Positions 698-33,031 of a stretch of DNA of 33,234 nucleotides are shown in pieces. Position 1 is the first letter of the stretch, and every line of letters starts with the position of its first letter. Made by a program: the position numbers and the translations under genes. Under the pieces are notes generated by a model that saw only the letters and a program-made list of their open reading frames with translations, ran no database searches and had not been told where the DNA came from. Source of the stretch: an uncultured Lachnospiraceae bacterium (lineage in GTDB: Bacteria > Bacillota > Clostridia > Lachnospirales > Lachnospiraceae); contig CAMBLS010000006.1 in the NCBI GenBank assembly GCA_945868485.1, positions 1 to 33,234 of the forward strand, read 5' to 3'.

Positions 698-2290
698 CTA
701 TTCTAATTTCTTGTCGTTCAAAACTACGTCTACATATCCTTTCACTCCATGTGGACATTTGATCGTTATTTCTTCTCCCGGTGCTAAAGATAATGTACCC
801 GTTATTCCTACAAACTCTCTTGTTCGCTTTGGTGCGTATGTAAGCACAATTCTATCATTGCCCTCCTTCAACTCTTTAGGTTGCTTTATCGCTCGATCCT
901 CTTGTAATATCTTCAGGATGTAATAAAGTCTATACTCAGCTTCAGGCGACGTGAAAGCCGTGTAAGAACTACTAGTTGTGTCAAGTCCAAATGATTTTCC
1001 TAAAAGGAAGTTGGCGGTTCCCGGATCCTCTCTCAGCCTGCAATTGTCCAAAATATGACGGCAATATGTATTGTATAGTATCTTCCTGGCTGCTGCAAAG
1101 CTCCTGTCTTCGTTTCGCATTGCATCAAGGGTTCGAAAGCTTATTCCTGCAAGGTTTATTAAACGCGTAGCCTCCTGCACTAAATATTGGGCTCTATAGG
1201 GAGATTGTTTACTCCTCATGTTCCTTATCACATAGCAATCTTTTATTTTATCATCTCCAACCTCCTCTAAAACATTAAGATAATGTTTCCGCAGCATAAC
1301 AGCAACACGAGGGACTGCGGGTCTGCTATAGTTTTTTGTGGCATTTGCACCAATATCTTTAAATAATCGAACCACGGCGAAGTCTTCCTCCTTGTGAAAA
1401 ACGATGTCACTCCATTTTAAGGTAACGATGTGCTTCGGTTCAAATCCACTGAGCATCAGCCCAACACCAACATTTACATCAGTAAGAGGCGTATTTAGCA
1501 ATTTATACAATTTCTCAACCATGTATGCCTCTAGTTCCACAACCCTCATAGCTTTAGCCTTGTTGGCAGCACCTGTAGCGCGCCTTTTTACCGGTGCTTC
1601 CACTGGGTTTTTCCCTGCGCACACTCCATGTTCTATGCAATATTGCCAAAACACTCTCAACTCTTTTTTTTCATTGTCTCCAATGTTTAGTTCTGTACAC
1701 CATCTGTTTATTTCGCCTTTCGAATAATCACTCATCGGTTTTGCAGGAAGTTTTGCACAGCAATTCCTAATTCGTTTAACATACTTTTCCCGTTCTTTTT
1801 CTGATGCCCTATTATGCTTCAGCGAAACGCATGCTGTAGCTTTAAGCTGCGCCGCTGTGTTCGGCGATATAGTATCAGGTCTGGCACATTGAGCTACCTG
1901 CGTCTGAATTAACTCTGCATTTTCTAAATACAGTCTCTCCGCAGCCTTTGCAACACATCTTTTTATTTCCGCTTCTGTTTCCAGTGTGCAATAAAAATCT
2001 GTCTCAACATTAAGTCGTCTGCTTGAATCGCTTCTTTGGCTTTCTGGGAGTTTATTTAATATTTCTTTTTTCACAATTCCTCTCTTTTTTAGTGTTGACC
2101 CTGTTCCTGAAATTGCACGTACTTTGCCTCGAATAGGATACCTACCGCTTTTTTGTCTATTTGCACTAAACTCAAAAATTGCTGACTGCAAGACATAACG
2201 CCCGGTTACTTTAGCTAGTGTTCCATCTTTTGTTTCGACTTTAAATACGCTTCCTGGATTATCCCAACCATTTTCTTCAGTCTTCTTCAT
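698..2290 (-). CDS. Diverged tyrosine-recombinase-like protein, second of a pair
   Basis: A 530-residue protein whose C-terminal half follows the tyrosine recombinase layout: an SGFEPKHIVTLKW segment at 281-293 where TGxRxxEhxxLxW is expected, a K/R-rich strand at 319-328, and LLGKSFGLDTTSSSYTAF at 429-446 matching LGHxxxxTTxxYxx. The pocket is eroded: box I Arg is absent near 284-285, the HxxR of box II appears as KILY (403-406), and the LGH histidine is Lys432, while a nucleophile-like Tyr443 is kept. About 85 further residues follow and look beta-rich. The start overlaps the end of the upstream recombinase gene by 14 bases, so the two are co-translated. It may be a non-catalytic or trans-acting partner; no specific family name is certain. 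Confidence 0.68.
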   Translation of the reverse strand: MKKTEENGWDNPGSVFKVETKDGTLAKVTGRYVLQSAIFEFSANRQKSGRYPIRGKVRAISGTGSTLKKRGIVKKEILNKLPESQRSDSSRRLNVETDFYCTLETEAEIKRCVAKAAERLYLENAELIQTQVAQCARPDTISPNTAAQLKATACVSLKHNRASEKEREKYVKRIRNCCAKLPAKPMSDYSKGEINRWCTELNIGDNEKKELRVFWQYCIEHGVCAGKNPVEAPVKRRATGAANKAKAMRVVELEAYMVEKLYKLLNTPLTDVNVGVGLMLSGFEPKHIVTLKWSDIVFHKEEDFAVVRLFKDIGANATKNYSRPAVPRVAVMLRKHYLNVLEEVGDDKIKDCYVIRNMRSKQSPYRAQYLVQEATRLINLAGISFRTLDAMRNEDRSFAAARKILYNTYCRHILDNCRLREDPGTANFLLGKSFGLDTTSSSYTAFTSPEAEYRLYYILKILQEDRAIKQPKELKEGNDRIVLTYAPKRTREFVGITGTLSLAPGEEITIKCPHGVKGYVDVVLNDKKLE

Positions 2291-3902
2291 ATTCGCCCTC
2301 CAAATCTTTATCTTTTTCGTCTTGCAATTTTCCTACTATGTACGCGTACATTCTTCTGCCTCCATTTGTAATACTCCTGTCCACAAATTTAGGGGCCCCA
2401 TCTCTAGGTATGTCCAGCATTATCACTTCACCAGCCTCCGTTGCAAGAGCATCGATCTTTACAAGAATACATTGTTCCGAAGTATTGCAAAGTCTCACTT
2501 CATCAAAAGGCACAATTTCTATGCTTTTCCCCTGCGACAGCGATATGGGTCTATGTTTAGGGCTTATACTGCTTTCTGGATACATATCATAGCGAGAGTT
2601 TTTTTGCGCAAGCATTTTAAAACTCTCCTCTGCAAGCGGGTTGTCCTTTTCAAATCTTTTCTTCAAATTTCTATGTCCTAGACAATAATCCAGTTCATCT
2701 TGGGTATAGCCACAGTAATTACGCCATATTGATGCTCTGTTTCTCCTACATATATGTGCCGCTATATCTCTAATAGGTTTACCGTCTGCGTTGTATTCAG
2801 GGTTAGTCTCCATATCAGCATAAGCCTCACGAAGATAGTCATCAGTACATCCTGCCTCCCTCAACTTTGTTCTTATCCAAGCAGACAGATCTGTATCGAT
2901 TAGCGGAGTATCTTCCGTTAACTTTTCATGCCCTATTACATCGTTACACTTGCGTACCATAACTGTTCCCCATTCATCCAAAACAACACATCTGTACGAA
3001 TCTTTTGATTTTAGTCGATCTATCCTCTTTCCTTTCTCTTCTTGAGATAGTATCTTTACTACCATGTATTCTCCATAATCAATATGCCATCCCGACCATG
3101 TTGCTGCCGCCTCTCCCGACCGTGCTCCTGCAGAGTCCATTAATATTGCTGCCCTTGCCATGTATGGCTCTTCGGCAATGGCCGCTTCTACAAGTTCTCT
3201 AAATTTTTTATGTATTATGAAAGGAAGTCTTTTAAGCTGCTCTGTTTTCTTTCTCCGCCTCTGTACATCACATCTCAGATCAATGGGAGGTAGGCTAGGT
3301 TCGTGGTATCTCATCTCTGAGTAAATTCGATCAGCATCATTCATGTGACTCACCGCAATAACTCGAGCTTCATCAATATCATCTTTCCTTTCCATCCTTT
3401 TCAAGGCAATTTGGGCTAATTCCTTTATGAGATCCTCTTTTTCTACTACGGTAAAGTCAGACTCAACTTCGCATTCCTGTATCTTAGGCAAAATATTACG
3501 ATAAAAATAAACCACATAAGCTTTTTGCGTAGATCGAGCCCACGGGTAGATATTATGAGCATTATCTCTTCTTTTATCATCGATATCTGGCCCAAAAAGT
3601 TCAAGAAAAACCTTGACCATCAAGCTTTCAAATGAAAGCGTGTTTTTCCCGTTAGAAGACATGGCTTTATTTCTCTGAGAAAATTCAATTTTTTCCGTAA
3701 TTTTGTTTACGACCACATTTTGTGCAAATTCAATATCCTCTTTGGTTTTTGCATTGTGGCGAATTGGTTGTATTCCATCAACACGTATTCCATCAATGGC
3801 ATGGATAGCTGTACCTATTACAGTGATATTGTTATCTTTATTAGGCCAAGTAAGATGCACTCTTATACCTTCCAACCGCGTATCAACATCTTTTTTAGGC
3901 AT
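2277..3902 (-). CDS. Diverged tyrosine-recombinase-like protein, first of a pair
   Basis: A 541-residue protein with a recognisable tyrosine recombinase catalytic domain: AGARSGEAAATW at 258-269 (box I Arg261), LKSKDSYRCVVL at 297-308 (strand lysine), HICR at 383-386 (box II) and LGHR at 408-411. Where the nucleophilic Tyr should lie, 7-9 residues after His410, the sequence reads RFEKD with Phe417; the next tyrosines are Tyr438 and Tyr441. An all-helical core-binding-like region precedes the domain and roughly 90 residues follow it. The ATG is preceded by CGGAGG at good spacing. It is the first gene of a two-gene unit beside attL. Either it acts with its partner, or a downstream Tyr serves. 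Confidence 0.75.
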   Translation of the reverse strand: MPKKDVDTRLEGIRVHLTWPNKDNNITVIGTAIHAIDGIRVDGIQPIRHNAKTKEDIEFAQNVVVNKITEKIEFSQRNKAMSSNGKNTLSFESLMVKVFLELFGPDIDDKRRDNAHNIYPWARSTQKAYVVYFYRNILPKIQECEVESDFTVVEKEDLIKELAQIALKRMERKDDIDEARVIAVSHMNDADRIYSEMRYHEPSLPPIDLRCDVQRRRKKTEQLKRLPFIIHKKFRELVEAAIAEEPYMARAAILMDSAGARSGEAAATWSGWHIDYGEYMVVKILSQEEKGKRIDRLKSKDSYRCVVLDEWGTVMVRKCNDVIGHEKLTEDTPLIDTDLSAWIRTKLREAGCTDDYLREAYADMETNPEYNADGKPIRDIAAHICRRNRASIWRNYCGYTQDELDYCLGHRNLKKRFEKDNPLAEESFKMLAQKNSRYDMYPESSISPKHRPISLSQGKSIEIVPFDEVRLCNTSEQCILVKIDALATEAGEVIMLDIPRDGAPKFVDRSITNGGRRMYAYIVGKLQDEKDKDLEGEYEED

Positions 3903-5507: not shown

Positions 5508-6509
5508 TCAACATGCCTGTTCCGCTTTGACAATGTCATATGGTTTATATACCGTTTTCCCGTTTAGAGCATAAATATTATCTGACAAAGAGCCTTCTTG
5601 CATTTTTTTATACGCTTCATCAAATATGTACAGTTTGCTATCCACCATATCAATAGCATGGAGAACCAGAGCCTCCGGAATTGCCGGCTGGGTTATTGCT
5701 CCATATTCCGGCAGACCATGGTGTGATGCTATCATATGCTCAAGCATTCTAATTCTTTCCATGTTAAAGCCATCTTTGGCTTTCTCCTCTATCATCATTA
5801 TCCCGATAACTGCATGTCCAAGCAGTCTTCCATCCATAGTATACTCAGCACATCCTATAGCCGAAGTTTTCATTTCTTTTATCTTGCCTATATCGTGTAG
5901 TGCTGCTCCACAAATCAGCAGTTCCATATCGAGTTCAGGATATATATCTGCGAATTTTTGCGCCTGTTTAACCATAGTTAATGTATGATACAATAATCCG
6001 CCAATAACGTTATGATGTATCGTCTTAGCTGCAGAAGCCCTGATAAATGAATCTTTATTTTCTTTAAGCAGCGTTAGAGTTAATTCAGTAATCGATTTGT
6101 AAAGGTAATTTATTAAGCATTCGGTATTACTGCTTTCTACTATTTTTAATAGTTCGGAAAATGCTTCTTCCAAGTCTATCGGAGCCTTCATGGCAAAATC
6201 ATCCACAGCTAATAACGAGCCTAAATATTTAACAGCATAGTTAACATTGTAGCTTTTACTGCCATTGTACATTGATATACTGATGCGCAGCCTGACGACC
6301 TTTTCAGGTTCAATGCCATTTCTTTTGAGTTCAGCAATGCTGCAGTTAAACTGTCTTGCTATTATTGTTGATTCACCATCACATATTGTCATTTCAACAT
6401 AATTGGATGCATTCTTGGCGACCCTTTCATTCATCCCAAGCAAAAGTACATATGTCTCATACGTATGGCCTGATTCCATATCCTTAAATTTCATTATTTT
6501 GTCGTACAT
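5508..6509 (-). CDS. yhaM: YhaM-like 3'-5' exoribonuclease (OB + HD domains)
   Basis: A 333-residue protein of the length and layout of YhaM (about 314 aa in Bacillus): an N-terminal OB-fold nucleic-acid-binding region (about 1-95), then an HD phosphohydrolase domain. Metal-site residues are visible: His175 in GGLLYHT, the doublet His205-Asp206 in AALHDIGKI, His232 in LLGHAV, and the HMIASHHG cluster at 258-265. YhaM is a cytoplasmic 3'-5' exonuclease of RNA and DNA. The gene is last in the xis-int-RHH-RHH operon and its start overlaps the previous gene by 26 bases, which ties it to the mobility functions. A chromosomal-type nuclease in this position is unusual; its role here is unknown. Confidence 0.85.
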   Translation of the reverse strand: MYDKIMKFKDMESGHTYETYVLLLGMNERVAKNASNYVEMTICDGESTIIARQFNCSIAELKRNGIEPEKVVRLRISISMYNGSKSYNVNYAVKYLGSLLAVDDFAMKAPIDLEEAFSELLKIVESSNTECLINYLYKSITELTLTLLKENKDSFIRASAAKTIHHNVIGGLLYHTLTMVKQAQKFADIYPELDMELLICGAALHDIGKIKEMKTSAIGCAEYTMDGRLLGHAVIGIMMIEEKAKDGFNMERIRMLEHMIASHHGLPEYGAITQPAIPEALVLHAIDMVDSKLYIFDEAYKKMQEGSLSDNIYALNGKTVYKPYDIVKAEQAC

Positions 6510-6831
6510 CTTCGCCCTCTCCTTTCATATCATTCATCATCAGGGATATTACCGAAATAATTTCCTTCGTCTCCATTGTCGGTTCATTCCCGAGCTCCAA
6601 TTGTTCAATGAGCTGGCAGTTTACTTTCTTGAGCATTTCACGAATATGTTTTTGAACTTTTATATTTGGAATTGCTACTACTTCCTCATCTAGCAATCTC
6701 CTGATAATATAATCCTGTTTACTCATACCGGATAAATAAACAAGACTATTTATGCGTTCTTTTTCCACATTAGATTGCGTGAAAACGAGAGTTTTGCAGC
6801 GGTACCGATTATAGTTTTCTTTCTTGGTCAT
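6484..6831 (-). CDS. Small RHH/MobC-like protein
   Basis: A 115-residue protein with an RHH-type start: a basic strand (RYRCKTLVFTQSNVEKERINSL), then the turn-and-helix pattern SGMSKQDYIIRRLLDEE. A helical C-terminal half follows. The pattern resembles MobC-type relaxosome accessory proteins, which are common downstream of integrases on mobilizable elements. The start lies one base after the stop of the preceding gene and the end overlaps yhaM, so it is tightly operonic. No relaxase is present, so a mobilization role would need help in trans; autoregulation is the alternative. Confidence 0.6.
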   Translation of the reverse strand: MTKKENYNRYRCKTLVFTQSNVEKERINSLVYLSGMSKQDYIIRRLLDEEVVAIPNIKVQKHIREMLKKVNCQLIEQLELGNEPTMETKEIISVISLMMNDMKGEGEDVRQNNEI

Positions 6832-6832
6832 T

Positions 6833-7111
6833 TTAGTCTATCTCTTCTCCCCTACCCTTTTCTGTTAAAAGCAACAGATTGTTCATAACTTCATCATAAT
6901 ATGGTTTCAATGTCAAATATGCTTTCCTATTTTTCATGCAGCGAATTTGAGAATTATCTAATTTATTACGAATAAATTCTCTCTTGTTCTTCCCCTCCAT
7001 ATTTATGAGTTCCATAACCTTGTTGTATTGACATTCTGAAACCCTGACTCCAATAATAATATCTCGCCAGTTGCCGTGAATGTCTTTTGATTTCTCTGTC
7101 ATGCTTGTCAT
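6833..7111 (-). CDS. Small RHH-like protein downstream of integrase
   Basis: A 92-residue protein with an RHH-like pattern, IIIGVRVSECQYNKVMELINMEGKNKREFIRNKL, related in plan to the next gene. It starts one base after the integrase stop and uses the GAGG within the integrase terminus as its ribosome binding site; an ATG three codons further in is possible. Tandem small RHH-like genes after int suggest a relaxosome accessory or a regulator of the excision operon. Confidence 0.55.
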   Translation of the reverse strand: MTSMTEKSKDIHGNWRDIIIGVRVSECQYNKVMELINMEGKNKREFIRNKLDNSQIRCMKNRKAYLTLKPYYDEVMNNLLLLTEKGRGEEID

Positions 7112-7112
7112 C

Positions 7113-8183
7113 CTACCTCAATTCATTAAGTTTCTCAGACATCTGTTTTTGAACATCGGGAAACAAATGTGCATATCGATATGTTATTTCGATGCTTTCA
7201 TGGCCTAAACGATTTGCTATGGCAACCGCACTATATCCCATATCAATTAAAAGCGAAACATGGCTATGGCGTAGATCATGAACCCTTATATGTTTAAGTC
7301 CCACTCGTTCTGCTCCTTTTGTCAAATGTTTTGAAAGATACCCCTTATTTACTGGGAAAAGGCGTTCCTTTTCTTTTGGAGAATATATCATCTTGCAGTA
7401 TTCCTTTAACTCATCCCTCAAAAACTCCGGAATGGAAATTACTCTGTTGCTTTTATATGTCTTCGGGCTGGTAATAACATCTTTTCCTTTAATTCTGTGG
7501 AAAGTTTTCGAAATACTGATTGTCATTTTTTCAAAATCAATATCCGAAAGATTAAGCGCCAATAATTCTCCTTCTCTCATTCCGGTCCAGTAAAGGGTTT
7601 CAAAGCAGTAATAGGCAATAGGCTCGTCCATTATCTCCTCGGCAAAGGAAAGATACTCTTCCTTCGTCCAAAAGTTTAGTTCGATTTCCTTTTCCGACCC
7701 CATATTTCCAACCTTGGCTGCAGGATTCTCTTTAAATCCGAAGAATCTCACACCATAATTCATAATAGCACTTAACTGATTATGCAACGTCTTAAGGTAT
7801 GATTTAGAAAAATGCTTTCCTGTCTTTGGGTCAACAAACCTGAGCATCTCGTTTTGCCATCTTATCACATCCGTTGTAGTAATCTCGGTTACTATTTTCT
7901 TTGCAAAATACGGCATAATTCTATTGTTTATAATATTATCCTTCGTAATTGTAGTACTCTGCTTAATCCGAGGATACATATCCTCTTTGTATCGGTTTAC
8001 AAAATCCTCAAAAGTAACATTGACATCATCAGCTTTTTCAAGTTTAAAATTGTTTTCCCATTCAACTGCTTCACGTTTGGTCGGAAAACCTCTTTTACAT
8101 ATGTATTTTGTTTCACCCATCCAGTTCTTGTATTTAAATTTCACTGTCCAGGTTTTCTTATTTTCATCCTTATATGCAGGCAT
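7113..8183 (-). CDS. int: Tyrosine integrase, Tn916/lambda type
   Basis: A 356-residue integrase that should catalyse integration and excision at the guaA site. It has an N-terminal AP2-like arm-binding domain (about 8-50, TWTVKFKYKNWMGETK), a core-binding domain (about 55-150) and a complete catalytic domain: Arg203 in TGMREGE, a lysine around 241-244, His302 and Arg305 in HDLRHSH, His328 in LGHES, and the nucleophile Tyr337 in TYRYAH. Length and motifs are standard, so it should be active. It follows xis by 13 bases. It lies 7 kb from attL, whereas most such int genes abut an att site, which suggests later acquisition or rearrangement of the 0.7-5.4 kb segment. Confidence 0.95.
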   Translation of the reverse strand: MPAYKDENKKTWTVKFKYKNWMGETKYICKRGFPTKREAVEWENNFKLEKADDVNVTFEDFVNRYKEDMYPRIKQSTTITKDNIINNRIMPYFAKKIVTEITTTDVIRWQNEMLRFVDPKTGKHFSKSYLKTLHNQLSAIMNYGVRFFGFKENPAAKVGNMGSEKEIELNFWTKEEYLSFAEEIMDEPIAYYCFETLYWTGMREGELLALNLSDIDFEKMTISISKTFHRIKGKDVITSPKTYKSNRVISIPEFLRDELKEYCKMIYSPKEKERLFPVNKGYLSKHLTKGAERVGLKHIRVHDLRHSHVSLLIDMGYSAVAIANRLGHESIEITYRYAHLFPDVQKQMSEKLNELR

Positions 8184-8196
8184 TTCATCACCCCCC

Positions 8197-8382
8197 CTAC
8201 GATAAACTGCAGCCGTATACTTTTTCCTCGAAGTATGCTCTGCTTACCTTGCCGTGAATAATGATATAACCTCTTGATGATAGTTCATCGTTAAGGCCTC
8301 TGATAATTTTGTAGGCCTTAGAAATTGAGATATTCATATACGCTGCTACATCACTTGCATCTAAGAATCTTTTGTTTTCCAT
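8197..8382 (-). CDS. xis: Excisionase-like HTH protein
   Basis: A 61-residue winged-helix/HTH protein: LDASDVAAYMNISISKAYKIIRGL followed by a basic wing, ending before int. Size, fold and position directly upstream of int fit an excisionase that bends att DNA and steers Int toward excision. A GAGAGGGA ribosome binding site precedes the ATG. Upstream lies a terminator-bearing leader, so its expression probably depends on read-through. Confidence 0.82.
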   Translation of the reverse strand: MENKRFLDASDVAAYMNISISKAYKIIRGLNDELSSRGYIIIHGKVSRAYFEEKVYGCSLS

Positions 8383-8407: not shown

Positions 8408-8443
8408 AAAACAAAAACCGTGCAGGTGTTGTCCCTACACGGT
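8408..8443 (-). terminator. Leader terminator (attenuator) before xis-int
   Basis: On the minus strand ACCGTGTAGG pairs with CCTGCACGGT (10 bp with one T-G wobble, 7-base loop), followed by TTTTTGTTTT. It lies in the leader between the 8626-8655 promoter and xis, only about 25 bases before the xis start. It would end transcripts before the operon unless prevented. The same stem sequence recurs at 32552-32592. Confidence 0.85.
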
Positions 8444-8484
8444 GAGATTCAAATTCTGCAAATGAATTCTATAGTAAGATATCC

Positions 8485-8513
8485 TTGAAATTGCATTTCA
8501 AAGATGATATACT
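8485..8513 (+). promoter_or_regulatory. Promoter of small counter-transcribed RNA, copy 1
   Basis: TTGAAA (8485-8490), a 17-base spacer and TATACT (8508-8513) on the plus strand. No coding start follows; the transcript runs directly into a structured region ending in a terminator. Confidence 0.75.
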
Positions 8514-8519
8514 TTTCTC

Positions 8520-8606
8520 GCGGCAATGTGAGGGTGCTTGTACCACCTGATATCATTCACAGTTGGAGGTGGCAGCCTCCTTCTGTGAGAGCCGTATTTT
8601 TATTTT
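8520..8606 (+). ncRNA. Predicted antisense (counter-transcribed) RNA, copy 1
   Basis: About 87 nt from the predicted start to a terminator: CACAG-TT-GGAGG pairs with CCTCC-TT-CTGTG (8558-8587), then GCCGTATTTTTATTTT. A 5' hairpin (8531-8548) carries a seven-base loop beginning CUUG, which fits the YUNR U-turn motif of fast-pairing antisense RNAs. The RNA is complementary to the 5' part of the minus-strand leader of xis-int, so the likely role is promoting termination at 8408-8443. A homologue with the same layout lies at 32686-32774. No Rfam family is claimed. Confidence 0.7.
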
Positions 8607-8625
8607 CTTTTCTTAAGTTACTCTT

Positions 8626-8655
8626 ATTATACACTATATGGTACCATATAGTCAA
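8626..8655 (-). promoter_or_regulatory. xis-int operon promoter with RHH operator in spacer
   Basis: On the minus strand TTGACT (8650-8655), an 18-base spacer and TATAAT (8626-8631). A perfect 20-bp palindrome, ACTATATGGTACCATATAGT (8633-8652), fills the spacer and overlaps the -35 box. Its ATATGGTACCATAT core recurs in the 34-bp palindrome upstream of the RHH gene. The expected start near 8619 gives a leader of about 235 nt. Confidence 0.8.
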
Positions 8656-8671
8656 GCGTTTTTATTCAAAA

Positions 8672-8715
8672 AAATTAAAAAATATGGTACCATATTTTTT
8701 AATTTGTGTTATAAT
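8672..8715 (+). promoter_or_regulatory. 34-bp perfect palindrome and RHH gene promoter
   Basis: Bases 8672-8705 form a perfect 34-bp palindrome centred on GGTACC. The -10 box TATAAT (8710-8715) follows directly and the -35 position falls inside the palindrome, so a bound protein would block the promoter. The core matches the operator at 8633-8652, implying that one regulator, probably the RHH protein at 8746, controls both divergent promoters. Confidence 0.75.
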
Positions 8716-8745
8716 ATTTGAAAAAGAAGTTAGGAGACACCACAG

Positions 8746-8934
8746 ATGACCACCCAGGCGCAAAAGAATGCAAACCAAAAATATGAAACAGAAAAGGTGG
8801 AAAGTATCCGTTTCCGTGTCCCAAAGGGGAAACGTGCCAAGATACAAGAATGCGCAGCAAAAAACGGTGAATCTGTCAATGAAATGCTCAACAGATTAAC
8901 CGATGAAGAAATTGAAAGGGTTGGACTTGAATAA
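8746..8934 (+). CDS. Arc/CopG-type RHH repressor, copy 1
   Basis: A 62-residue protein with a basic N-terminal arm, the RHH strand SIRFRVPKGKRAKI and the helix-turn-helix NGESVNEMLNRL. AGGAG lies 9 bases before the ATG. It shares the plan KANxKYxEK...R...GESVN with the protein at 32846-33031, so the two are paralogues. RHH dimers bind short palindromes in the major groove, and two strong palindromes lie just upstream. The likely job is repressing its own promoter and the divergent xis-int promoter, like CopG of pMV158. Confidence 0.82.
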   Translation: MTTQAQKNANQKYETEKVESIRFRVPKGKRAKIQECAAKNGESVNEMLNRLTDEEIERVGLE

Positions 8935-9012: not shown

Positions 9013-9306
9013 CTAATTGTTTGCATATAGAAGTTTCTCCTCTCTGCTAATAGCAGATAAGAAGTCTTCACTCAAGCTACCTGTCGTTACTAGATCAACT
9101 TGTACACCGAGTTCCCCCTCAATATCAAGCAAAAGTCCGGCGAGTGCAATACCACCAATAATGCTACCCTTATCAATTCTTAAATTCACATTACTATGTT
9201 CGTTTGCATCGCCTCGTGCATAAGATCCAAAAAGATAAATATTTTGGGCTCCATATTCTTTTCCATATTTGGCAACTGTCCTTTGGATGTCTTCTAATTT
9301 TAACAT
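9013..9306 (-). CDS. MNT-type nucleotidyltransferase-like protein with altered active site
   Basis: A 97-residue protein of the minimal nucleotidyltransferase fold. FGSYARGDANEHSNVNLRID is the family signature GSxARGxxxxxSDxDL, but both catalytic aspartates read as asparagine (codons AAT GTG AAT). The third acidic position, in VQVDLV, is retained. MNT proteins transfer AMP to HEPN toxin partners in MntA/HepT-type modules; loss of two metal ligands would be expected to abolish or change catalysis. It follows the HicB-like gene by 14 bases. No HepT-type gene is adjacent; a HEPN-like protein lies about 400 bases upstream. Confidence 0.78.
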   Translation of the reverse strand: MLKLEDIQRTVAKYGKEYGAQNIYLFGSYARGDANEHSNVNLRIDKGSIIGGIALAGLLLDIEGELGVQVDLVTTGSLSEDFLSAISREEKLLYANN

Positions 9307-9320
9307 AGCCTGTCACTTCC

Positions 9321-9590
9321 TTATTTGATGTTTTTACTGTCACTTATCATCATAGGTGATTTTTTGCAATCCGCACAAATTCTTTCTTTCTTCATAAATC
9401 CATCCTCAAGTGCTGCTTCTAGCCATACTCTTTTCGCATCTAATGCATTCTGGGCTACTTCATCTAGCGTCTCACCGCAAGTTATGCAGCCTGGGAGCTC
9501 TGGGTAAAAAGCCACAAAGCCTCCTTCATCAGGATCCTCCACAATCTTCAATTCATAATCCTTATTCATATATTCATCTATCATTTTCAT
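9321..9590 (-). CDS. HicB-like antitoxin-fold protein
   Basis: An 89-residue protein with the HicB core: YELKIVEDPDEGGFVAFYPE, then LPGCITCGETLDEVAQNALDAKRVWLEAALE. HicB proteins carry a degenerate RNase-H-like fold and neutralise HicA mRNA interferases. I chose the ATG at 9590 because GGGGGCGAAG precedes it; a longer frame to 9656 lacks a site. No HicA gene is adjacent, and the short C-terminal extension shows no clear DNA-binding helix. The ATG overlaps the end of an open, startless coding fragment, which suggests that the natural upstream partner was lost. Confidence 0.8.
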   Translation of the reverse strand: MKMIDEYMNKDYELKIVEDPDEGGFVAFYPELPGCITCGETLDEVAQNALDAKRVWLEAALEDGFMKKERICADCKKSPMMISDSKNIK

Positions 9591-9669
9591 CTTCGCCCCC
9601 ATTTGCAACCTTCTTGAAATGACGCAGGTCTTTTTCAGACAACTCGGAATATTCATTATCCTGCGTATC
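9574..9669 (-). pseudogene. C-terminal remnant of an unidentified gene
   Basis: An open stretch of about 31 codons with no start (LSEKDLRHFKKVANGGEDEND near its end) terminates in a TGA that overlaps the HicB-like ATG region. This is the spacing of translationally coupled genes. It looks like the tail of a deleted upstream partner. I do not recognise the family; it does not resemble the HicA C-terminus. Confidence 0.35.
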
Positions 9670-14466: not shown

Positions 14467-15126
14467 TCAAACCAGTTCCTCAAACACCTTTGAAAAGAGC
14501 AATTGTGTGAAAATTTGTTCAACTTGTTTCGCTATATTTTTAGAGATGATATGCGTTCCCAACTCAATATTGCCTTGCTGACCATGGTATGAAAGATTAG
14601 CTGACGTGATTAGAGTTTCTTCTTGGTCCACTGATATTACCTTTGCATGTAAGGCCGACATTGAATCAGACCGCTTTGGATAATTATATATCTTCAAGAA
14701 TTTGCCCCTATATGAGTACAATCTTTCAAAGCATTTCTGACTTTCAATATCATTTACATAGAACTTTATCAGCACGCCTTGCTGACTTTTCCGAATAATA
14801 CAGTCAACCATATCGCTAAAATAATCCGACACTGAATATCCTGTAATCAGGATGCTCTTGTTTGCCTTGCTTAACATTTCATCCACTACCACTTTTGTTA
14901 CTTCGCTACGTATTGCAAATGAAGGTGGCGCTGTTACAACAACAGCTACTGAATCTTGTTTTTGGTTAAAAGCTGCACAAACTAGTTTATGGATTTCTCT
15001 CGCTTCTTCTCGCGACAAAGAAGGGTATCTTCGCTGTATTTTAGATACCGCATCCTCTGTATTTGACAGTGCATCATTTGATATTTGATTAAGCAAAATA
15101 TCTAAGCTTATGTTTCCAGTTGACAT
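14467..15126 (-). CDS. drmC: DISARM PLD-family protein DrmC
   Basis: A 219-residue phospholipase-D-superfamily protein with one HKD-type motif: ALHAKVISVDQEETLITSANLS, with His160, Lys162, Asn177, and Glu188 further on. A second HKD half-motif is not obvious, so the active form is probably a dimer. Known DrmC proteins carry a PLD domain and are dispensable for some DISARM activity. The ATG lies within drmB (19-base overlap), so the two are translationally coupled. It is the last gene of the defence operon. Confidence 0.9.
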   Translation of the reverse strand: MSTGNISLDILLNQISNDALSNTEDAVSKIQRRYPSLSREEAREIHKLVCAAFNQKQDSVAVVVTAPPSFAIRSEVTKVVVDEMLSKANKSILITGYSVSDYFSDMVDCIIRKSQQGVLIKFYVNDIESQKCFERLYSYRGKFLKIYNYPKRSDSMSALHAKVISVDQEETLITSANLSYHGQQGNIELGTHIISKNIAKQVEQIFTQLLFSKVFEELV

Positions 15127-16853
15127 AGTTCTTCCACCAAAGTCTTGAAATACGATTGCTTTTCTCTACCATCAATTGGCACAATTAGTCCTCGATCAAG
15201 CATACGGTTCCCATTTTCGCATGCAGTTTCCGAAATCATACAACAAGAATGACATGCTGCACCATTTGAATTGTTCCCAGCCGGAATGGTATTTAAGCAT
15301 TCTGGATCATTTGTACACACTAATGCTTCTTGAAATGCATCTCTCATTAAAACAATTAGCTGATCAATATTTCCCAATTCCACAAGCCCGCCAAGAGATC
15401 CCTCTTTATCAGCGCTACCGGTATACAGTAGGATACCCGACATATCATCACCGAAGTAAATCCTTTCGCGAATTGCAGAAGAAGAGTATCCAGAAGCCAT
15501 TGACATTTGCTTAATCAACAAATGTGCAAAAGTGTGCATCAATACATAGCGAGCGTCCCTGAAAACTGTGATTGTCCATCCTTTAGATTCACAAAATTCC
15601 TTATAACACTGAGCATACTTCCGTGATAAAGCAGAAAGATCCGAGTCTCGCAGCCAAGAGTCAATGTTTTTTTTGTTAAATTCAATGAAAACGCCTTCGC
15701 CATGTACCTCTGCAGCAGGAAGCCATTTTTCACTTTTTCCTTTGTTGAGATAAACAATATTGGTTTGTTCATCTGCATCAGGGTCCGGTGCATCCACACG
15801 TGTAAATCCGAGTAACACGCGTACTTCTCGCAAACGAGTAATTCGAATAACTCGTTTGAAATACGGTAACAAATAATCCGGAAGCGGATCTTCTTCCGCC
15901 TTGAAATGTCTTTTGTTTGAAGCATACAAAGGATCTGCATGGTGCGTAATTGCGTTGTACTCCATTTGCTTAATCTCAGTGAATTCTTTAATATTTTGCC
16001 GTCTTCTTAAGAGAGCCGCATCAAATTCTTCTCTGGAAAAAGCACTGAAATATTTCTGATAAACCTTATCCAACCCTAATTCGCCAAAGTCTTCTTCATA
16101 ACTGTCAATCAAGCGCAGATGCTCATCAATAAGATTGTAGAGCGGATTGATCCAAGGCGGAATCGATATCGCACTTCTCATGACAGGAAAATAAACATTA
16201 GAAGCACCTCGCTGTGAAGGAATCATTTCCCTTTTGCATTTTTCATTCTTATGATTCGGCCTGAATGGATGGTGACCTGTACACATCATTCCTTCAAAGT
16301 TTTCTCTTTGAGTCGCACCACTCATGCTACGCTTTGCTCCACAAGAGCACTCCACCCACATATCAGCAAGGGTTGATGTATTGCCGGTCGAATACATCCT
16401 CAAGGTACCGTTGCAAGTTGTCTGACCATTATGTACCCACCAATGCCACGGAAAATCATTCATATGGCCATCTTCACATATAGTAATGAAACGAGAAGGA
16501 TAGGCTTGTTTATGGCAAGAAGGACAAGTTACCCCAAATCTTAAATATCTGTCCAAATCAAATTGATCGCGGACATCGAAAATTCTTCCGCACTTTACAT
16601 TTGAACAGACATGCGTATATGGGAAAGAAATCACAGGGACGTCTCCACTGTACGATGTTCTAGGCATGTAAAAGCAATCAACATTTAGATAAGATGCCAA
16701 TCGTCCATCAATGATTCTTTTGCCTTTTTCTTTCCAATAGTTCAAATCAAGGACCGTTACAGAATCTTTTACTGCATCAACAATTGCACCGGGTCCGAAT
16801 GTCGTAATCAACTGATTAGGACGAATTTCACCTAATTTATTATTATCAAACAT
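15108..16853 (-). CDS. drmB: DISARM protein DrmB (DUF1998)
   Basis: A 581-residue protein beginning IRPNQLITTFGPGAIVD, the typical DrmB opening. Several Cys pairs suggest zinc sites: CSNVKCG, CPSCHK, ICEDGH, ECSCGAK and MCTGHH. The C-terminal DUF1998 part reads HTFAHLLIKQMSMASGYSSSAIRERIYF, then SLGGLVELG, and ends with a Cys cluster ACHSCCMISETACENGNR. DrmA and DrmB form a DNA-loaded complex that recognises unmethylated phage DNA. It begins 6 bases after drmA ends and overlaps drmC. Confidence 0.94.
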   Translation of the reverse strand: MFDNNKLGEIRPNQLITTFGPGAIVDAVKDSVTVLDLNYWKEKGKRIIDGRLASYLNVDCFYMPRTSYSGDVPVISFPYTHVCSNVKCGRIFDVRDQFDLDRYLRFGVTCPSCHKQAYPSRFITICEDGHMNDFPWHWWVHNGQTTCNGTLRMYSTGNTSTLADMWVECSCGAKRSMSGATQRENFEGMMCTGHHPFRPNHKNEKCKREMIPSQRGASNVYFPVMRSAISIPPWINPLYNLIDEHLRLIDSYEEDFGELGLDKVYQKYFSAFSREEFDAALLRRRQNIKEFTEIKQMEYNAITHHADPLYASNKRHFKAEEDPLPDYLLPYFKRVIRITRLREVRVLLGFTRVDAPDPDADEQTNIVYLNKGKSEKWLPAAEVHGEGVFIEFNKKNIDSWLRDSDLSALSRKYAQCYKEFCESKGWTITVFRDARYVLMHTFAHLLIKQMSMASGYSSSAIRERIYFGDDMSGILLYTGSADKEGSLGGLVELGNIDQLIVLMRDAFQEALVCTNDPECLNTIPAGNNSNGAACHSCCMISETACENGNRMLDRGLIVPIDGREKQSYFKTLVEELCQLET

Positions 16854-16859
16854 TGGCGT

Positions 16860-19800
16860 TTAATCCTCCGTATAGTAATACATATTCGCTGCACTTTCTA
16901 CCTCTCTCATCGAGCGCAGAGTCGCTTTTTCAGTGTCAGTGCAAACTTCACCGTAGCTGTTCATCAAACGATTGTACTTTTCGGTGTTAAATACATAGTA
17001 CTTTAGATCTTTGGGTTGAGATGCTAACAGCTTCCAACTACCAACAAATTCATCAATTTCATGTTCTACATCATACTTCGCTGCAGGTTTCACAATCTTT
17101 AACCTTTCCATAATAAGGCTCTTGATTTCAACAAGTTGCTGATCTGTTAATTGATCAATTGCTGCTGCCCCATCATTATTTGCCATATTGGGATATCGCA
17201 AACGAATGGCTGAAATAATCAAGGCATGCAAAACACGATCTCTTGCTCTGGCAGAGAAAGGAGTTGCAGTTGTACCTTCTACGAAACGATAAAGCTGTGA
17301 ATGATAACCAGTAAAGTTTTCATAGTGAGACAAATCTCGAGGTCTGTACGGGTTATATAATGTTACCACTAAGCCAGGGAAAGAACGACCAATACGGCTA
17401 GTAGCTTGGATATATTCAGAATTCTGTTTCGGTTGACCTGTGACAACCATTAAACCCAATCTGTCTACGTCCATACCAACTGCAATCATATTTGTCGCTA
17501 CTGCAGTATCCAAACAATCCCTCGAAGTGTATGGTAATTCGAGCTGGTTCAGTTTCTTTGGAATATCATAAGATGACATTCTTGAAGTTATTTCTTCTTT
17601 TCTATTAAGGAAACGCTGCTTTACCATACCATATTTTTTCTTGATACGCTGAATTCTGTCAGGAATGTCGTCTTGGAGCAGACGTACTGCACCACCAAGT
17701 TCTCGAATACTATTGTAGTAGCCAACGAGAGTATAGTATGGGTCAATGAATTCTTGATATGTCTCTTCTTGAGAGAGTGAATATGAGCTCTGTAAAAGGA
17801 TTGCATATACGCGAAGCAAAGCTGTCTTCACAGATTGTCCAGGAGCACATACACCTACATATCTTCTGAACGGCTCAGCATCTACGGGTACTTCTCTTAT
17901 GAAAAAGCTATCGCCTATTTCAAAGCCGTTAGGCGGAAATTGAGCTGTCACTTTTCTTCCATATAGACACTTGGTTTGTTCTGCGGCATTCTTAATTGTT
18001 GCTGTCGATACTACATATTTAGGTTTGATTTTCTTATCTCCAACCGAATATGTGCAAAGGTCTTCAATTATTGTTTCATAAGCGCCATATATAGTGCCCA
18101 AAGGACCTGTGATAAGATGAAGCTCGTCTTGAATTATTAACTCTGGTGGAAGAAACGGTCTTATTTGTGTCAGTGAAGAGGCAGGTAATTCGTCGGTTTT
18201 ATTATGCCTACTATGATCTACGCCAATTGCAACATATCCATCACGGCTGCAAAGTCTATCAACACGACCAAACAGAGCATTTGTATTAACGTCCCATGGA
18301 AGACGTGCAAATTTATCTACTGTAGATAGAATAATTGTGGGACACTTCGCATATATTTCTTCATCAACCAGATATACCGGAATTTTCATCTTTTTCCTAG
18401 GATTGTACTTATAGAACATGCATGTCGGATCTGAGCAATAGATGCTAACAGACTTTGTTGGGATATCAATGTAAAAGTTTTCTTCCTTAAGAGGTTTTCC
18501 GCAAAACGGACAAATTAGAAGTTGCTTGTAAATCAAATTTTTTTTACTTCTAGCATTCCGCGTTTTTTGAGGGTCTTCTGGATTTTCCTTCAACTCTTCA
18601 AAAGTATTTGGCGTAACACCGCCGCCAACCCAGAAACCAATACTGATAGGTTCTTTTCCGTACCTTGGATATTCCTTGTCGCGTATCATTTCAGCAGCGA
18701 TAACCATCTTGGTGATACGGTCTCTCTGTTGTGTGGTAAGCAAACGCAATGTATATCGCAAAATAGCAGTTACTCCACCGTCTCTATTGAAATCATCGTC
18801 TTCTTTTGCCCGTAGTCTTCTGTTAGCTATTACGAACGCCATGAGACCAAGATACGCTTCCGTTTTACCGCCACCAGTTGGGAAGTATAACAAATCCACG
18901 ATCTCTCGCTCATTATCGTCAGGTTCCACCATTGCTTTTAGATTCAAAAGAATAAAAGCAATCTGGAACGGTCTCCATCCAAAGTCGTTTTCAGGTTTTC
19001 TTGGATCTACAAAATCCTTGAAATTACATTCGATTCCTGCCCCATGCCTTTTGGAATAATTCATAATATTCCTTTGCAAAATCATTGCGCGGTTCATAAA
19101 ACAGAATGCATCAAAAGCTATATCATCATCAATCAAGAGCCGAATGCCTGATCGTATTCTGCTTAAAGCGCCTTCACATTTTTCAACAACAGCATCACCA
19201 ATTTCGTTTTTGAATTGAATATTGGACATTTTGGCATCATGAATCAGAGTATCCTTAATCCATGTTTCATAAGAATCAGCTAACACATTCAATCGTTCTA
19301 TAATTTCTTCCTTTTTCTTCGAAACAGATAGAGTGCGCATTGAAAAATAAAATGGATCAAAACCTTCCAATGCGGCGCTGACGCTAGGAAATTCATATTC
19401 AGGAATAAAAGAAGATAATATTTCAGAGGCACGTCCTCTTTCATTTGCATTCCAAGTTGCAGCACAACCACGTCCACGCCCCAAAATGGGGCGCTGAGCA
19501 AAATAAAATTCATCAACTGCAAGTATCTTTCTACAAATATGTTCTGCGACGAAAATATCTGAGTTATCTGGTGAATAAGCGCGCAAATTAACCTGAAACA
19601 TCATCCCCACAATATCATTCTCAGAGTTTTGGCGTCGATTGATAATATATGCAGTAACTAAATTATACCCTTGCTTCAATCCTATTTTTGAAATATGTAG
19701 AACTACATTCGAATCACAAGCCAAAGAATATTCTTTACTTTTACTAAATGATTGAAGATCAACTGTGATTGTTTCTTTCTGTGGATATCGAGTATATGTG

Positions 19801-20201
19801 TTAGCACTTATTTCTTTCCCATCTTTGTTTTTCGTTTTTTCCGTCGATTTGGTATAGTCGCCCCATTTCACATCAACACAAAAACTACTCGTTATATTTT
19901 CTAGATAGAAGCTTATTCCAATAGATGACGGAGTCTTGAAACGATTTGCGGTAACAGGCTCGTTATCATCATCTTCGCCTGCAGTGTAATCTGCAACTCC
20001 TTCAAAAGATGTATCTCCATCTACCTCAATCTCATTTGATCCAGCTTCGTCGTTTGTTTGAGGTGCAAGCATACCAACAATATACTCAAATCGAGGATTT
20101 TGATTCAGTATTTCATTTTCACAACTTGGACCCAATAAATCAGTTTTCAGCATTTCTATAATATGTTGGCGAACCTCAGCATATTTGAATCTATCTGCCA
20201 T
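16860..20201 (-). CDS. drmA: DISARM helicase DrmA
   Basis: A 1113-residue superfamily 2 helicase. The N-terminal 400 residues are specific to the family. Walker A is FPTGGGKTEA (440-449), motif II is IIQDELHL (690-696), and a zinc-finger-like insert lies between them (CPFCGK at 564-569; Cys589 and Cys594). The C-terminal RecA lobe has TNMIAVGMDVDRLG and QATSRIGRSFPG. In known systems DrmA pairs with DrmB on 5'-overhang DNA and translocates, with methylation status separating self from phage. It sits 13 bases after drmD and 6 bases before drmB. No truncation is seen. Confidence 0.94.
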   Translation of the reverse strand: MADRFKYAEVRQHIIEMLKTDLLGPSCENEILNQNPRFEYIVGMLAPQTNDEAGSNEIEVDGDTSFEGVADYTAGEDDDNEPVTANRFKTPSSIGISFYLENITSSFCVDVKWGDYTKSTEKTKNKDGKEISANTYTRYPQKETITVDLQSFSKSKEYSLACDSNVVLHISKIGLKQGYNLVTAYIINRRQNSENDIVGMMFQVNLRAYSPDNSDIFVAEHICRKILAVDEFYFAQRPILGRGRGCAATWNANERGRASEILSSFIPEYEFPSVSAALEGFDPFYFSMRTLSVSKKKEEIIERLNVLADSYETWIKDTLIHDAKMSNIQFKNEIGDAVVEKCEGALSRIRSGIRLLIDDDIAFDAFCFMNRAMILQRNIMNYSKRHGAGIECNFKDFVDPRKPENDFGWRPFQIAFILLNLKAMVEPDDNEREIVDLLYFPTGGGKTEAYLGLMAFVIANRRLRAKEDDDFNRDGGVTAILRYTLRLLTTQQRDRITKMVIAAEMIRDKEYPRYGKEPISIGFWVGGGVTPNTFEELKENPEDPQKTRNARSKKNLIYKQLLICPFCGKPLKEENFYIDIPTKSVSIYCSDPTCMFYKYNPRKKMKIPVYLVDEEIYAKCPTIILSTVDKFARLPWDVNTNALFGRVDRLCSRDGYVAIGVDHSRHNKTDELPASSLTQIRPFLPPELIIQDELHLITGPLGTIYGAYETIIEDLCTYSVGDKKIKPKYVVSTATIKNAAEQTKCLYGRKVTAQFPPNGFEIGDSFFIREVPVDAEPFRRYVGVCAPGQSVKTALLRVYAILLQSSYSLSQEETYQEFIDPYYTLVGYYNSIRELGGAVRLLQDDIPDRIQRIKKKYGMVKQRFLNRKEEITSRMSSYDIPKKLNQLELPYTSRDCLDTAVATNMIAVGMDVDRLGLMVVTGQPKQNSEYIQATSRIGRSFPGLVVTLYNPYRPRDLSHYENFTGYHSQLYRFVEGTTATPFSARARDRVLHALIISAIRLRYPNMANNDGAAAIDQLTDQQLVEIKSLIMERLKIVKPAAKYDVEHEIDEFVGSWKLLASQPKDLKYYVFNTEKYNRLMNSYGEVCTDTEKATLRSMREVESAANMYYYTED

Positions 20202-20214
20202 TTGGTACCTCCCA

Positions 20215-24112: not shown

Positions 24113-24137
24113 TGTCAATTACCTACCTAACTGCTGT

Positions 24138-30999: not shown

Positions 31000-32526
31000 C
31001 TATACCACTTCCGGCTCTGCAATTTGCGCATAAGATTTCACTCTCTGGGGCAGATTGCTTAATCTTCTTCGCATCGGTTTCCCCATTGCCTCACCTAGCG
31101 GAGCATCACTTCCGTAAAACACGACCTGCTTCCTCGCTCTCGAAATAGCTGTATAAACAAGGTTTCTGTTCATCATGCAGGCGAATTCTTCTGTTACCGG
31201 CATGAGAACTCTGTCATATTCGCTTCCCTGGCTCTTATGCACCGTCAGTGCATATGCATGAATCAGTTCTATGGGTGTCTCATTTCTTCCCCACTGCGGT
31301 CTTCTGCCGTCAGCAAGCTCGATGTAGAACTCCACTTCCGAAGATTTATCTGGCAATCTTAGAATTCCTATATCTCCATTGGTGCAGTCATGCTCTGCAC
31401 TGTTTTGAGTAATCATAACTCTGTCTCCATCATGAAAATCCATTCCGTAAAGGTGCAGCACTCTCTCACCGACTCTATACGGATTTACCATAGCCTTAAT
31501 GCCGGCATTCAGACTTTTGGCAGAAAACTTTGTCTTTTCTTTAAAAGGCGTGATTACCTGTATGTTTTCTCCGTTGTAATATGCTCGGGATGCTTCTTGA
31601 ACTAGAGCGTCATATGCATCCTCCTTTTCGTACAAATTAATCTGCAAGCTTTCATCCCCATTAATATCTCTTAATTTTGACAGCTTGGAGAAATTAGTTA
31701 TGTTCTCAAGAAGTGCTGCTGCACCTTCATCCTGCCTGTGATTAAGGTCAAGATGAACATGAGGAATCCCAAGGAGCAGCAAGTCATTCATTACGTTTCC
31801 ACATCCAACTGACTGAAGCTGATTAGGATCTCCTATCAGCACAATGCAGCAGTTTTTTCTCGCGCGCTGCAGAATTCCGGTCAACATTTCAAGTGTCAAC
31901 ATGCTCGCTTCATCGACAACAATTAAACTGACATCACTCCATTTTACAGGTGTGAAGAAGTCTTCATCCGGTCTGAGTCCCAGTGCACTATGTACGGTTC
32001 TTGCTCTGAAACCTGTTTTGGCAGTGAGATTCCTTGCTGCTTTCCCTGTGGGTGCACACAGCACCGTACTGCTCGTTCTGCCCCAACAGCCTATTATAGC
32101 CTTAATCAGTGTAGTTTTGCCTGTGCCAGCGCCTCCGGTTATTAATGACAGCTTATGAGAAAGTGCCATCCTTACTGCCTCTTTTTGTTCCTCACACAAA
32201 TCTGATAAATAGTAGTCAGGGAAAGGAAATGCCCACTTTCCGGTATTAACATTTCTCTCCAAAATGTCTCTCAGGGAGAGTGCTGCTGCGATTTCATACT
32301 GGTATGTCTTCGCTGAATAGATGTTTGAGTTTTCGATGCAAATTTCTTTTTCTTCAACCATTTTCTCAATTCCCAGAGCGAATGTTTCCCACGTAATTGA
32401 TTTTTCCATGCTGCAGCATTTGCTGATAAGATCCTGCATCGGAATGAATGAGTCACCGTCCATTTCATTCTTCTTGATTGCCTCATGGATGTGTTCTTTT
32501 ACTGCGCACATTGCTTTTGTGTTCAT
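31000..32526 (-). CDS. RecD-like SF1B helicase, short form
   Basis: A 508-residue 5'-3' helicase of the RecD/TraA type: Walker A ITGGAGTGKTTL (129-140), LIVVDEASML near 205, GDPNQLQSV, and the UvrD-C-terminal motifs HAYALTVHKSQGSEYDRV and NLVYTAISRARKQV. RecD2 proteins are usually 700-800 residues with an N-terminal helix-hairpin-helix part; here about 110 unrelated residues precede the helicase. There is no relaxase domain. AGGAGG precedes the ATG. It is the first gene of a two-gene operon governed by a leader like that of xis-int, so it may serve replication or processing of the excised element. Confidence 0.88.
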   Translation of the reverse strand: MNTKAMCAVKEHIHEAIKKNEMDGDSFIPMQDLISKCCSMEKSITWETFALGIEKMVEEKEICIENSNIYSAKTYQYEIAAALSLRDILERNVNTGKWAFPFPDYYLSDLCEEQKEAVRMALSHKLSLITGGAGTGKTTLIKAIIGCWGRTSSTVLCAPTGKAARNLTAKTGFRARTVHSALGLRPDEDFFTPVKWSDVSLIVVDEASMLTLEMLTGILQRARKNCCIVLIGDPNQLQSVGCGNVMNDLLLLGIPHVHLDLNHRQDEGAAALLENITNFSKLSKLRDINGDESLQINLYEKEDAYDALVQEASRAYYNGENIQVITPFKEKTKFSAKSLNAGIKAMVNPYRVGERVLHLYGMDFHDGDRVMITQNSAEHDCTNGDIGILRLPDKSSEVEFYIELADGRRPQWGRNETPIELIHAYALTVHKSQGSEYDRVLMPVTEEFACMMNRNLVYTAISRARKQVVFYGSDAPLGEAMGKPMRRRLSNLPQRVKSYAQIAEPEVV

Positions 32527-32551: not shown

Positions 32552-32592
32552 AAAAACAAAACACCGCGCAGGATACAACCACTACACGGTGT
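32552..32592 (-). terminator. Leader terminator (attenuator) before the RecD-like gene
   Basis: On the minus strand ACACCGTGTAG pairs with CTGCGCGGTGT (11 bp with two wobbles), followed by TTTTGTTTTT. It lies about 25 bases before the gene. The stem shares ACCGTGTAG and CCTGCnCGGT with the 8408-8443 terminator. Confidence 0.85.
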
Positions 32593-32650
32593 TCATTACA
32601 TCAAAACATCGGCGGATGACAGACCGCACCTTGATATTATAAATACTGCC

Positions 32651-32679: not shown

Positions 32680-32685
32680 ATCATT

Positions 32686-32774
32686 ACGGTGCGGAGTACT
32701 CCGTTGTGTGGGTGCTTACTCACCTGCATAGGTGTAAGGGAGCTGCAACTCCTTTACACTGCCGTTTTTGTTTT
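32686..32774 (+). ncRNA. Predicted antisense RNA, copy 2
   Basis: About 89 nt ending in a strong terminator: GTGTAAGGGAG (32732-32742) pairs with CTCCTTTACAC (32749-32759), then TGCCGTTTTTGTTTTC. A 5' hairpin GGTG-CUUACU-CACC (32711-32724) has a loop fitting YUNR. The core GGGTGCTT...CACCTG and the final GCCGT plus T-run are shared with copy 1. Its 3' end meets the start of the RecD-like leader, as in plasmid countertranscripts. Confidence 0.75.
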
Positions 32775-32782
32775 CTGCGAGG

Positions 32783-32811
32783 ATTATATCATATCTGCTA
32801 GCAGATAGCAA
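32783..32811 (-). promoter_or_regulatory. RecD-like operon promoter with palindromic operator
   Basis: On the minus strand TTGCTA (32806-32811), a 17-base spacer and TATAAT (32783-32788). A perfect 16-bp palindrome TATCTGCTAGCAGATA (32792-32807) fills the spacer. Layout is that of the xis-int promoter but the operator sequence differs, implying a different cognate regulator. Confidence 0.75.
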
Positions 32812-32845: not shown

Positions 32846-33031
32846 ATGCCAAAAACTGAGGCCGAAAAAAAAGCAAATAAGAAATATCTTGAAAAGCTGG
32901 ATGTTATTTATTTGAGATTAACTCCCGAAGAAAAAGAACATATTTCTTCCTATGCAAAGTCAAAGGGGGAATCGGTTAACTCTTTTGTTATTAGAGCTGT
33001 CAAAGAAGTAATGGGTAAGGATGAGAAATAG
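32846..33031 (+). CDS. Arc/CopG-type RHH repressor, copy 2
   Basis: A 61-residue protein: basic arm AEKKANKKYLEK, strand VIYLRLTPEEKEHI and helix region KGESVNSFVIRAVKE. The start at 32846 has TTTTGGAGGG 7 bases before it; an upstream in-frame ATG at 32768 has no site. It is a paralogue of the 8746-8934 protein and lies beside an operator-containing promoter in the same relative place. The likely target is the palindrome at 32792-32807. Its own promoter is unclear and may be read-through of the small RNA. Confidence 0.82.
   Translation: MPKTEAEKKANKKYLEKLDVIYLRLTPEEKEHISSYAKSKGESVNSFVIRAVKEVMGKDEK

Follow-up and report, generated by a model that had tools for sequence, protein, structure and literature searches.

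The excision genes xis and int of the window (the whole stretch of 33,234 nucleotides of DNA analysed here) appear to be held by a two-layer brake, in which an RHH repressor and antisense-driven attenuation act together on the excision genes of an integrative element. From the arrangement of the sequence in this and related loci, we place the probability of this reading at roughly three in four. The most probable course is that termination before xis is forced by the antisense RNA, with the RHH protein repressing the leader promoter. The first layer would consist of an RHH dimer that binds both of two related palindromes and thereby represses its own promoter and that of the xis-int leader. 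The second layer, whose structure comes from comparison and whose action is predicted, would consist of a plus-strand antisense RNA, ~85 nt in length, opposite the 5' half of the leader.

In the free leader, a segment termed b would pair with the 5' arm of the leader terminator, termed T, so that RNA polymerase reads into xis-int. The antisense RNA would capture the leader, probably through its loops; with b thus engaged, T would fold and end transcription ahead of xis. T would have the form of the leader hairpin read by the antisense RNA, but inverted, and conserved G-U pairs would keep the antisense hairpin folded, whereas its leader counterpart, carrying A-C mismatches, would be more open. 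Excision and copying of the element would yield more of the RNA and of the RHH protein, and xis-int would then be shut down.

Excision genes, leader and candidate operators

The product of xis matched the ICEBs1 excisionase model (NCBIfam NF047858) with 58.7 bits (E 3.5e-16), which is below the curated cut-off of 100 bits and thus marks a related protein, not an equivalog. Counted from the start that its promoter predicts, the xis-int leader is ~235 nt long and carries an intrinsic terminator between the antisense target and the first gene, with 34 nt between the end of the T stem and the xis ATG and ~24 nt between the run of T residues and the ATG (Table 1). The original prediction had placed a palindrome in the spacer of the leader promoter and a terminator directly before xis, and both were found there, together with the divergent RHH gene that it had described, whose promoter overlaps a related palindrome covering the -35 region. 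The RHH domain matched Pfam Arc with 21.4 bits against a cut-off of 20.4 and aligns with its relatives.

Table 1. Positions of the features of the xis-int module and of the second module in the window
Feature	Position	Strand	Sequence or remark
int	7113..8183	-	tyrosine recombinase, 356 aa
xis	8197..8382	-	61 aa; adjoins int
Leader terminator T	stem 8443-8417	-	ACCGTGTAGG-loop-CCTGCACGGT, then TTTTTGTTTTC
Promoter of antisense RNA	8485-8513	+	TTGAAA-17-TATACT
Antisense small RNA	8520..8604	+	three-hairpin fold; ends inferred
Leader segment b	8524..8537	-	GCACCCTCACATTG; complement of the P2 5' arm of the small RNA; proposed anti-terminator
xis-int leader promoter	8655-8626	-	TTGACT-18-TATAAT; 11/12 consensus matches
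20-bp perfect palindrome over leader promoter spacer	8633-8652		ACTATATGGTACCATATAGT; proposed RHH operator
34-bp perfect palindrome over RHH -35 region	8672-8705		proposed RHH operator
Extended -10 of RHH gene	8707-8715	+	TGTTATAAT; read by eye
RHH (Arc-type) repressor gene	8746..8934	+	62 aa; divergent from xis-int
RecD-like helicase gene behind second module	31000..32526	-	
Second leader terminator, before helicase gene	32560..32593	-	
Promoter of second antisense RNA	32651-32679	+	TTGAAA-17-TATAAT
Second antisense RNA copy	32686..32773	+	from covariance model
Second leader promoter	32811-32783	-	TTGCTA-17-TATAAT; read by eye
16-bp palindrome in second leader promoter spacer	32792..32807		TATCTGCTAGCAGATA
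Second RHH gene	32846..33031	+	best Pfam match TacA1, 22.8 bits (cut-off 21)

The 20-bp and 34-bp palindromes have the core ATATGGTACCATAT in common, and their positions at the regulated promoters are those expected of candidate RHH operators. None of 300 simple shuffles of the intergenic stretch produced a palindrome as long as 34 bp. The longest palindromes are less striking in two of the related loci described below (L013 and L015, with 8 and 9 of 300 shuffles as long), and a third (L079) has no perfect palindrome of at least 10 bp.

Scans for single sites between 6500 and 10500 gave 10 promoter-like sites against 14.2 expected and three terminators against 1.8 expected, neither of which exceeds chance. 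As single-site scans did no better than chance, the comparison of homologues had to decide, and the homologues retain the RNA structure, the promoter, the terminator and the gene order, which answers the question of chance where single sites do not. At the DNA level, the leader region had no match in plasmids, and a search of 98 relatives matched 10 genomes, the matches other than the window itself being pieces of only ~24-61 bases. A 48-base match to a microvirus record in the phage search was taken as chance. With the RHH protein as query, one relative was found in genome contigs and none in plasmids.

Several other genes of the window are of note. Behind int on the minus strand (6484-7111 and 5508-6509) are two small NikA-like genes, one of them below the Pfam cut-off, and an HD-domain gene, which possibly provide mobilization functions. 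Two open reading frames of 530 and 541 aa at 698-3902 (minus strand) had no Pfam match at E 0.01 and look by eye like divergent tyrosine recombinases. Just beyond the RHH gene, a minimal nucleotidyltransferase gene and an open reading frame that by eye looks like HicB (9013-9656, minus strand) are perhaps toxin-antitoxin-like. A DISARM-type defence cluster occupies 14467-24118 on the minus strand, with strong PADLOC matches to DrmC, DrmB, DrmA, DrmD and DrmMII, and is adjoined by a helicase-like gene with a weak REase_III match (24138-27050) and a type III methyltransferase (27053-29152).

A family of antisense RNAs and the genes behind it

The plus-strand RNA that had been proposed, with a TTGAAA-17-TATACT promoter of its own and a terminator, has all of these parts in the sequence and lies opposite the 5' half of the xis-int leader. 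Its hairpins are a closing stem (P1), a recognition hairpin (P2) and a terminator hairpin (P3); the covariance match spans 8520-8603, and the fold of 8518-8612 on the plus strand has a z of -3.2. Three copies, two from the window and one from locus L013, gave a common fold of P1, a short hairpin, P2 and P3, and a search with the model built on them added five RNAs from as many other genomes (6 of 244 genomes including the window's own; E 4.8e-8 to 1.5e-6). The two RNA copies to which the original prediction had referred are real, the second belonging to a further module at 32560-33031.

Together, the three model copies and the five newly found RNAs form an alignment of eight sequences with 29 pairs, 16 of which changed on both sides. 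Paired cells made up 94.2% of this alignment, against 37-54% for slid control structures, and its pairing, both-side changes and covariation score were each reached in 0 of 500 shuffles; further pair types, one measure of covariation, were not exceptional (62 of 500 shuffles). As the alignment was fitted to the three-sequence model, it is the five new rows that carry the weight of the covariation. Of 47 loci, 42 have a promoter with at least 9 of 12 matches within the 60 nt that precede the model start, and its spacer is 17 bp in 37 of those 42; the 47 loci are not independent, several being copies within one genus, and they include four weaker covariance hits without such a promoter (L029, L030, L044 and L047) that are probably false. 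Against Rfam release 15, neither the window nor L013 nor any of 20 other loci reached a gathering score, and a search of eight loci to E 1 returned two sub-threshold hits, to one snoRNA and one miRNA family.

The two strands of this region differ in their capacity to fold. Across 37 aligned RNAs (row L019:1648-1705 being dropped from the count), 178 cells are G-U on the small-RNA strand, compared with 11 that are A-C and so would be G-U on the leader strand, and of 1029 cells 94.8% pair on the small-RNA strand versus 78.6% on the leader strand. On this comparison of aligned sequences, the G-U bias and the higher pairing identify the plus strand as the folded strand and the one under selection for its fold. 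The same counts bear on a different account, in which the leader is a cis-acting sensor, riboswitch-like or a leader-peptide attenuator, and the plus-strand RNA is a mere mirror image. The leader strand does fold well by itself (z -6.3), and it holds a 35-codon open reading frame with its ATG at leader position 65 that ends shortly before T. We consider this account very improbable, given that the G-U bias reflects a plus-strand fold and that the plus strand has its own recurring promoter. A leader peptide was set aside, as the 35-codon frame has no Shine-Dalgarno-like sequence upstream and no similarly placed frame was seen by eye in the open reading frame lists of L013, L015, L016 and L079.

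The module before xis-int is present in four further genomes, namely L013 (an Erysipelotrichaceae MAG), L015 and L016 (two genomes of other genera) and L079 (Aristaeella lactis plasmid NZ_CP069422.1). Alignment identified divergent RHH genes in the first three. The RHH gene and the palindromes of the proposed repressor layer are present in the sequence; the protein itself is replaceable, since in A. lactis a Cro/CI-type HTH gene takes its place, and the RNA and terminator are thus the constant part while the protein is exchanged. The stretch L035 was rejected as a sixth xis locus because the 267 bases beyond the RNA start hold no xis-like frame; at 1124-1854 it has the RNA and a terminator, with a divergent HTH gene, next to a recombinase-like open reading frame. 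By eye, an open reading frame in L035 resembles the first of the 530- and 541-aa frames of the window.

Relatives of the RNA are not specific to integrases and also precede a RecD-like helicase gene and other genes. At the other end of the window, the second module (32560-33031) has the same layout as the xis module, and a PIN/NYN-domain gene also lies downstream of it with the helicase gene. The viral contig L125 carries the RNA (70.8 bits) and a terminator ahead of a helicase gene whose product is 39% identical to the window's RecD-like helicase over 489 residues; an RHH gene was not noted on this contig. T is conserved across the aligned xis and helicase leaders. Other relatives precede proteins that by eye look exported (L017-L019 and L036-L038) or small proteins with no known family. 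Four genomes of one genus hold one to three RNA copies each (L039, L043, L045, L048-L051, L053 and L054), several of which precede a small protein of unknown kind. Further relatives lie upstream of, and antisense to, genes of the SymE_toxin family in L028 and L052, and by eye in L046, a placement that tentatively suggests that this RNA fold may also serve in type I toxin-antitoxin systems. SymE/SymR is such a type I toxin-antitoxin system, and the likeness is confined to these relatives, as the xis module has no SymE-like gene.

A second model extended the search, with matches in 8 of 392 genomes at the level of the order, 14 of 391 for the class (E up to 1e-3) and, for the phylum, 6 of 398 (E up to 1e-4), each figure including the window's genome; some of its weak hits are probably false. 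One stretch (L084) has, besides its full RNA match, a truncated one at its very start (1-56), ~1.3 kb away. A survey for Xis of this wider type gave a match in 53 of 236 genomes, and 28 of 30 Xis loci scanned out of a longer list had no RNA, the two that did being among the modules found otherwise. RNA matches were likewise absent beside the Xis/Int relatives of Subdoligranulum (L080), Selenomonas (L083) and Ilyobacter (L129), in three phage records (L081, L082 and L128) and at the viral Xis loci L055-L061. The 17 viral RHH loci (L062-L078) gave no accepted match; the only hit, of 13.5 bits (E 0.35) at L066 100-172, precedes an RHH gene on a viral contig, from which it is separated by inverted repeats, and was unconvincing as the same RNA.

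Proposed pairing of the leader with its terminator

The proposed switch depends on the resemblance between T and the antisense RNA. An accepted T lies opposite the RNA at 26 of the 38 loci, and GTGTAG occurs in its 5' arm in 21 of these 26. The sequence of this arm recurs in P2 of the antisense RNA, whose 5' arm reads TGTGTAGGTG or a variant, and in L040 the RNA arm and the terminator arm both read TGTGTATGGT. Because the T 5' arm resembles the antisense recognition arm, leader segment b could pair T away. In the window's leader, none of 131 other leader stretches of the kind pairs with the T 5' arm as well as b does, and b is the best partner of T among all such stretches in 15 of the 26 loci, the window's own included; nine of these 15 come from one genus, b ranking first in six of the other 17 loci, and the ranking covered only loci with an accepted T, the other 12 being set aside. 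Pairs of b with its own T average -12.46 kcal/mol as opposed to -11.24 kcal/mol for swapped pairs, and 20 of 5000 permutations were as low (18 distinct pairs), with the T arms having been hand-picked from candidates (that of L013 by eye, those of L039 and L043 as the second listed) in a manner that may favour resemblance. The pairing is weak in the window's second copy (27 of 151 leader stretches as good) and in L016 (33 of 156), and also in L046 and L052.

Structure predictions for P2 are in keeping with a strand-specific hairpin. The window's P2 engages the whole arm in a fold of -6.2 kcal/mol, while its leader counterpart, on which the G-U pairs of P2 become A-C mismatches, forms only a four-pair hairpin (-4.8 kcal/mol) that leaves CTCACATT of b open.

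Folding of the full leader gave a less clear picture. In 22 of 25 loci, among them that of the window, T was at 0.84 or above irrespective of whether the antisense region was blocked. Only L013, L035 and L037 shifted, all in the predicted direction; in L035 and L037, T stood at 0.02 and rose on blocking to 0.70 and 0.89, respectively. Prefix folds clearly beat shuffles (at most 1 of 30) in only three of 25 loci, and in the prefix fold of the window's leader T pairs with AUACGG at the 5' end and not with b, a result matched by 14 of 30 shuffles. Since T is favoured irrespective of blocking, the switch model needs kinetic control. The folding simulations are equivocal on the switch, and it is the ranking by complementarity that carries the argument for an anti-terminator. 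The two-layer anatomy of the original prediction is supported in that the module recurs with the same parts in the same order and b is the best partner of T here; the simulations do not show the switch in the window's leader.

The constancy of T in these folds would also suit an antisense RNA that acts after transcription, through cutting of the duplex or hindrance of xis translation, with T as a constitutive terminator that lowers basal expression; the SymE-like genes behind some relatives, which belong to a type I toxin family, point the same way. We regard this alternative as unlikely, because the T arms track the antisense P2 arm, as seen in the permutations and in L040, and because the RNA covers the leader from ~138 nt upstream of the xis start and not the ribosome-binding site. 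Antisense-driven attenuation remains the preferred reading.

Comparison of copies bears on the specificity of such pairing. In nine copies of one genus, the stems and flanking sequences hardly vary, but the loops of P2 and P3 are different in each copy, the pattern to be anticipated where pairing is initiated at the loops and cross-talk between copies has to be avoided. For the window it could be supposed that its two RNAs act in trans and that the xis-int and helicase operons are cross-regulated as one regulon, given that the apical parts of P2 share GGGTGCTT in both RNAs and that apical cross pairing reaches -19.1 kcal/mol compared with -31.9 kcal/mol for the xis RNA's own. Over the whole RNA, cross pairing amounts to -63 and -72 kcal/mol against -184 and -188 kcal/mol with the RNAs' own leaders, and loops diversify between copies elsewhere; such cross-regulation is accordingly improbable.

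We lean slightly towards a broader proposal. They may constitute a large, uncatalogued family of plug-in antisense attenuators for mobile elements and other loci in Bacillota (the phylum of two named hosts), in which T would be the inverted form of the leader's own antisense target, the G-U pairs would allow the antisense strand alone to fold, hypervariable loops would render paralogs orthogonal, and wiring to xis-int would produce a copy-dependent brake on excision.

Relation to known systems and implications

By analogy, the proposed mechanism belongs with the antisense-driven attenuators of Gram-positive plasmids such as pT181, pIP501 and pCF10. Of the plasmid comparisons, pIP501, which was offered originally, and pCF10 fit better than pMV158. 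The copG/RNAII/repB region of pMV158 likewise pairs an RHH repressor with an antisense RNA, but RNAII blocks repB translation and copG is co-transcribed with repB, whereas the RHH gene of the window module is divergent. Part of PMC6540685 mentions this RNAII. The copR/RNAIII/repR system of pIP501, as presented in portions of PMC4981023, shares a small repressor combined with an antisense RNA, early termination in a long leader and convergent promoters; in this comparison of anatomy alone, it differs in that the target here is xis-int and not a replication initiator, and the repressor is RHH or Cro/CI-type and divergent. In prgX/Anti-Q/prgQ of pCF10, according to sections of PMC6540685, an antisense RNA drives the leader terminator of a mobility operon alongside a promoter repressor. 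That system serves conjugation genes, is pheromone-responsive and produces Anti-Q from the PX promoter, in contrast to the present RNA with its own promoter beside the first stem.

Small RNAs that influence transfer are also known from integrative elements, and portions of PMC9299015 describe RteR of CTnDOT, which represses the tra operon, and sgm-sRNA of SGI1, which serves mobilization; attenuation of xis-int is not mentioned in those portions. PMC8040213 mentions 28 candidate RNAs in the vicinity of integrase, sortase or phage domains, with which the present RNA may overlap. In a mostly open-access literature, we recognised no description of an antisense attenuator controlling xis-int. The new part would be the application of antisense attenuation to excision, the type of mechanism being already known.

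Accounts of how integrated elements control their excision usually centre on protein repressors. For ICEBs1, excerpts of PMC6540685 give the repressor as ImmR. If our reading is true, an antisense attenuator before xis-int would provide control of excision at the level of the leader that senses copy number, as plasmids do for replication. Studies of RNA-RNA specificity would in addition gain from the RNA family a set of sense/antisense pairs diversified in nature, and its model would allow readers of transcriptomes to recognise such loci.
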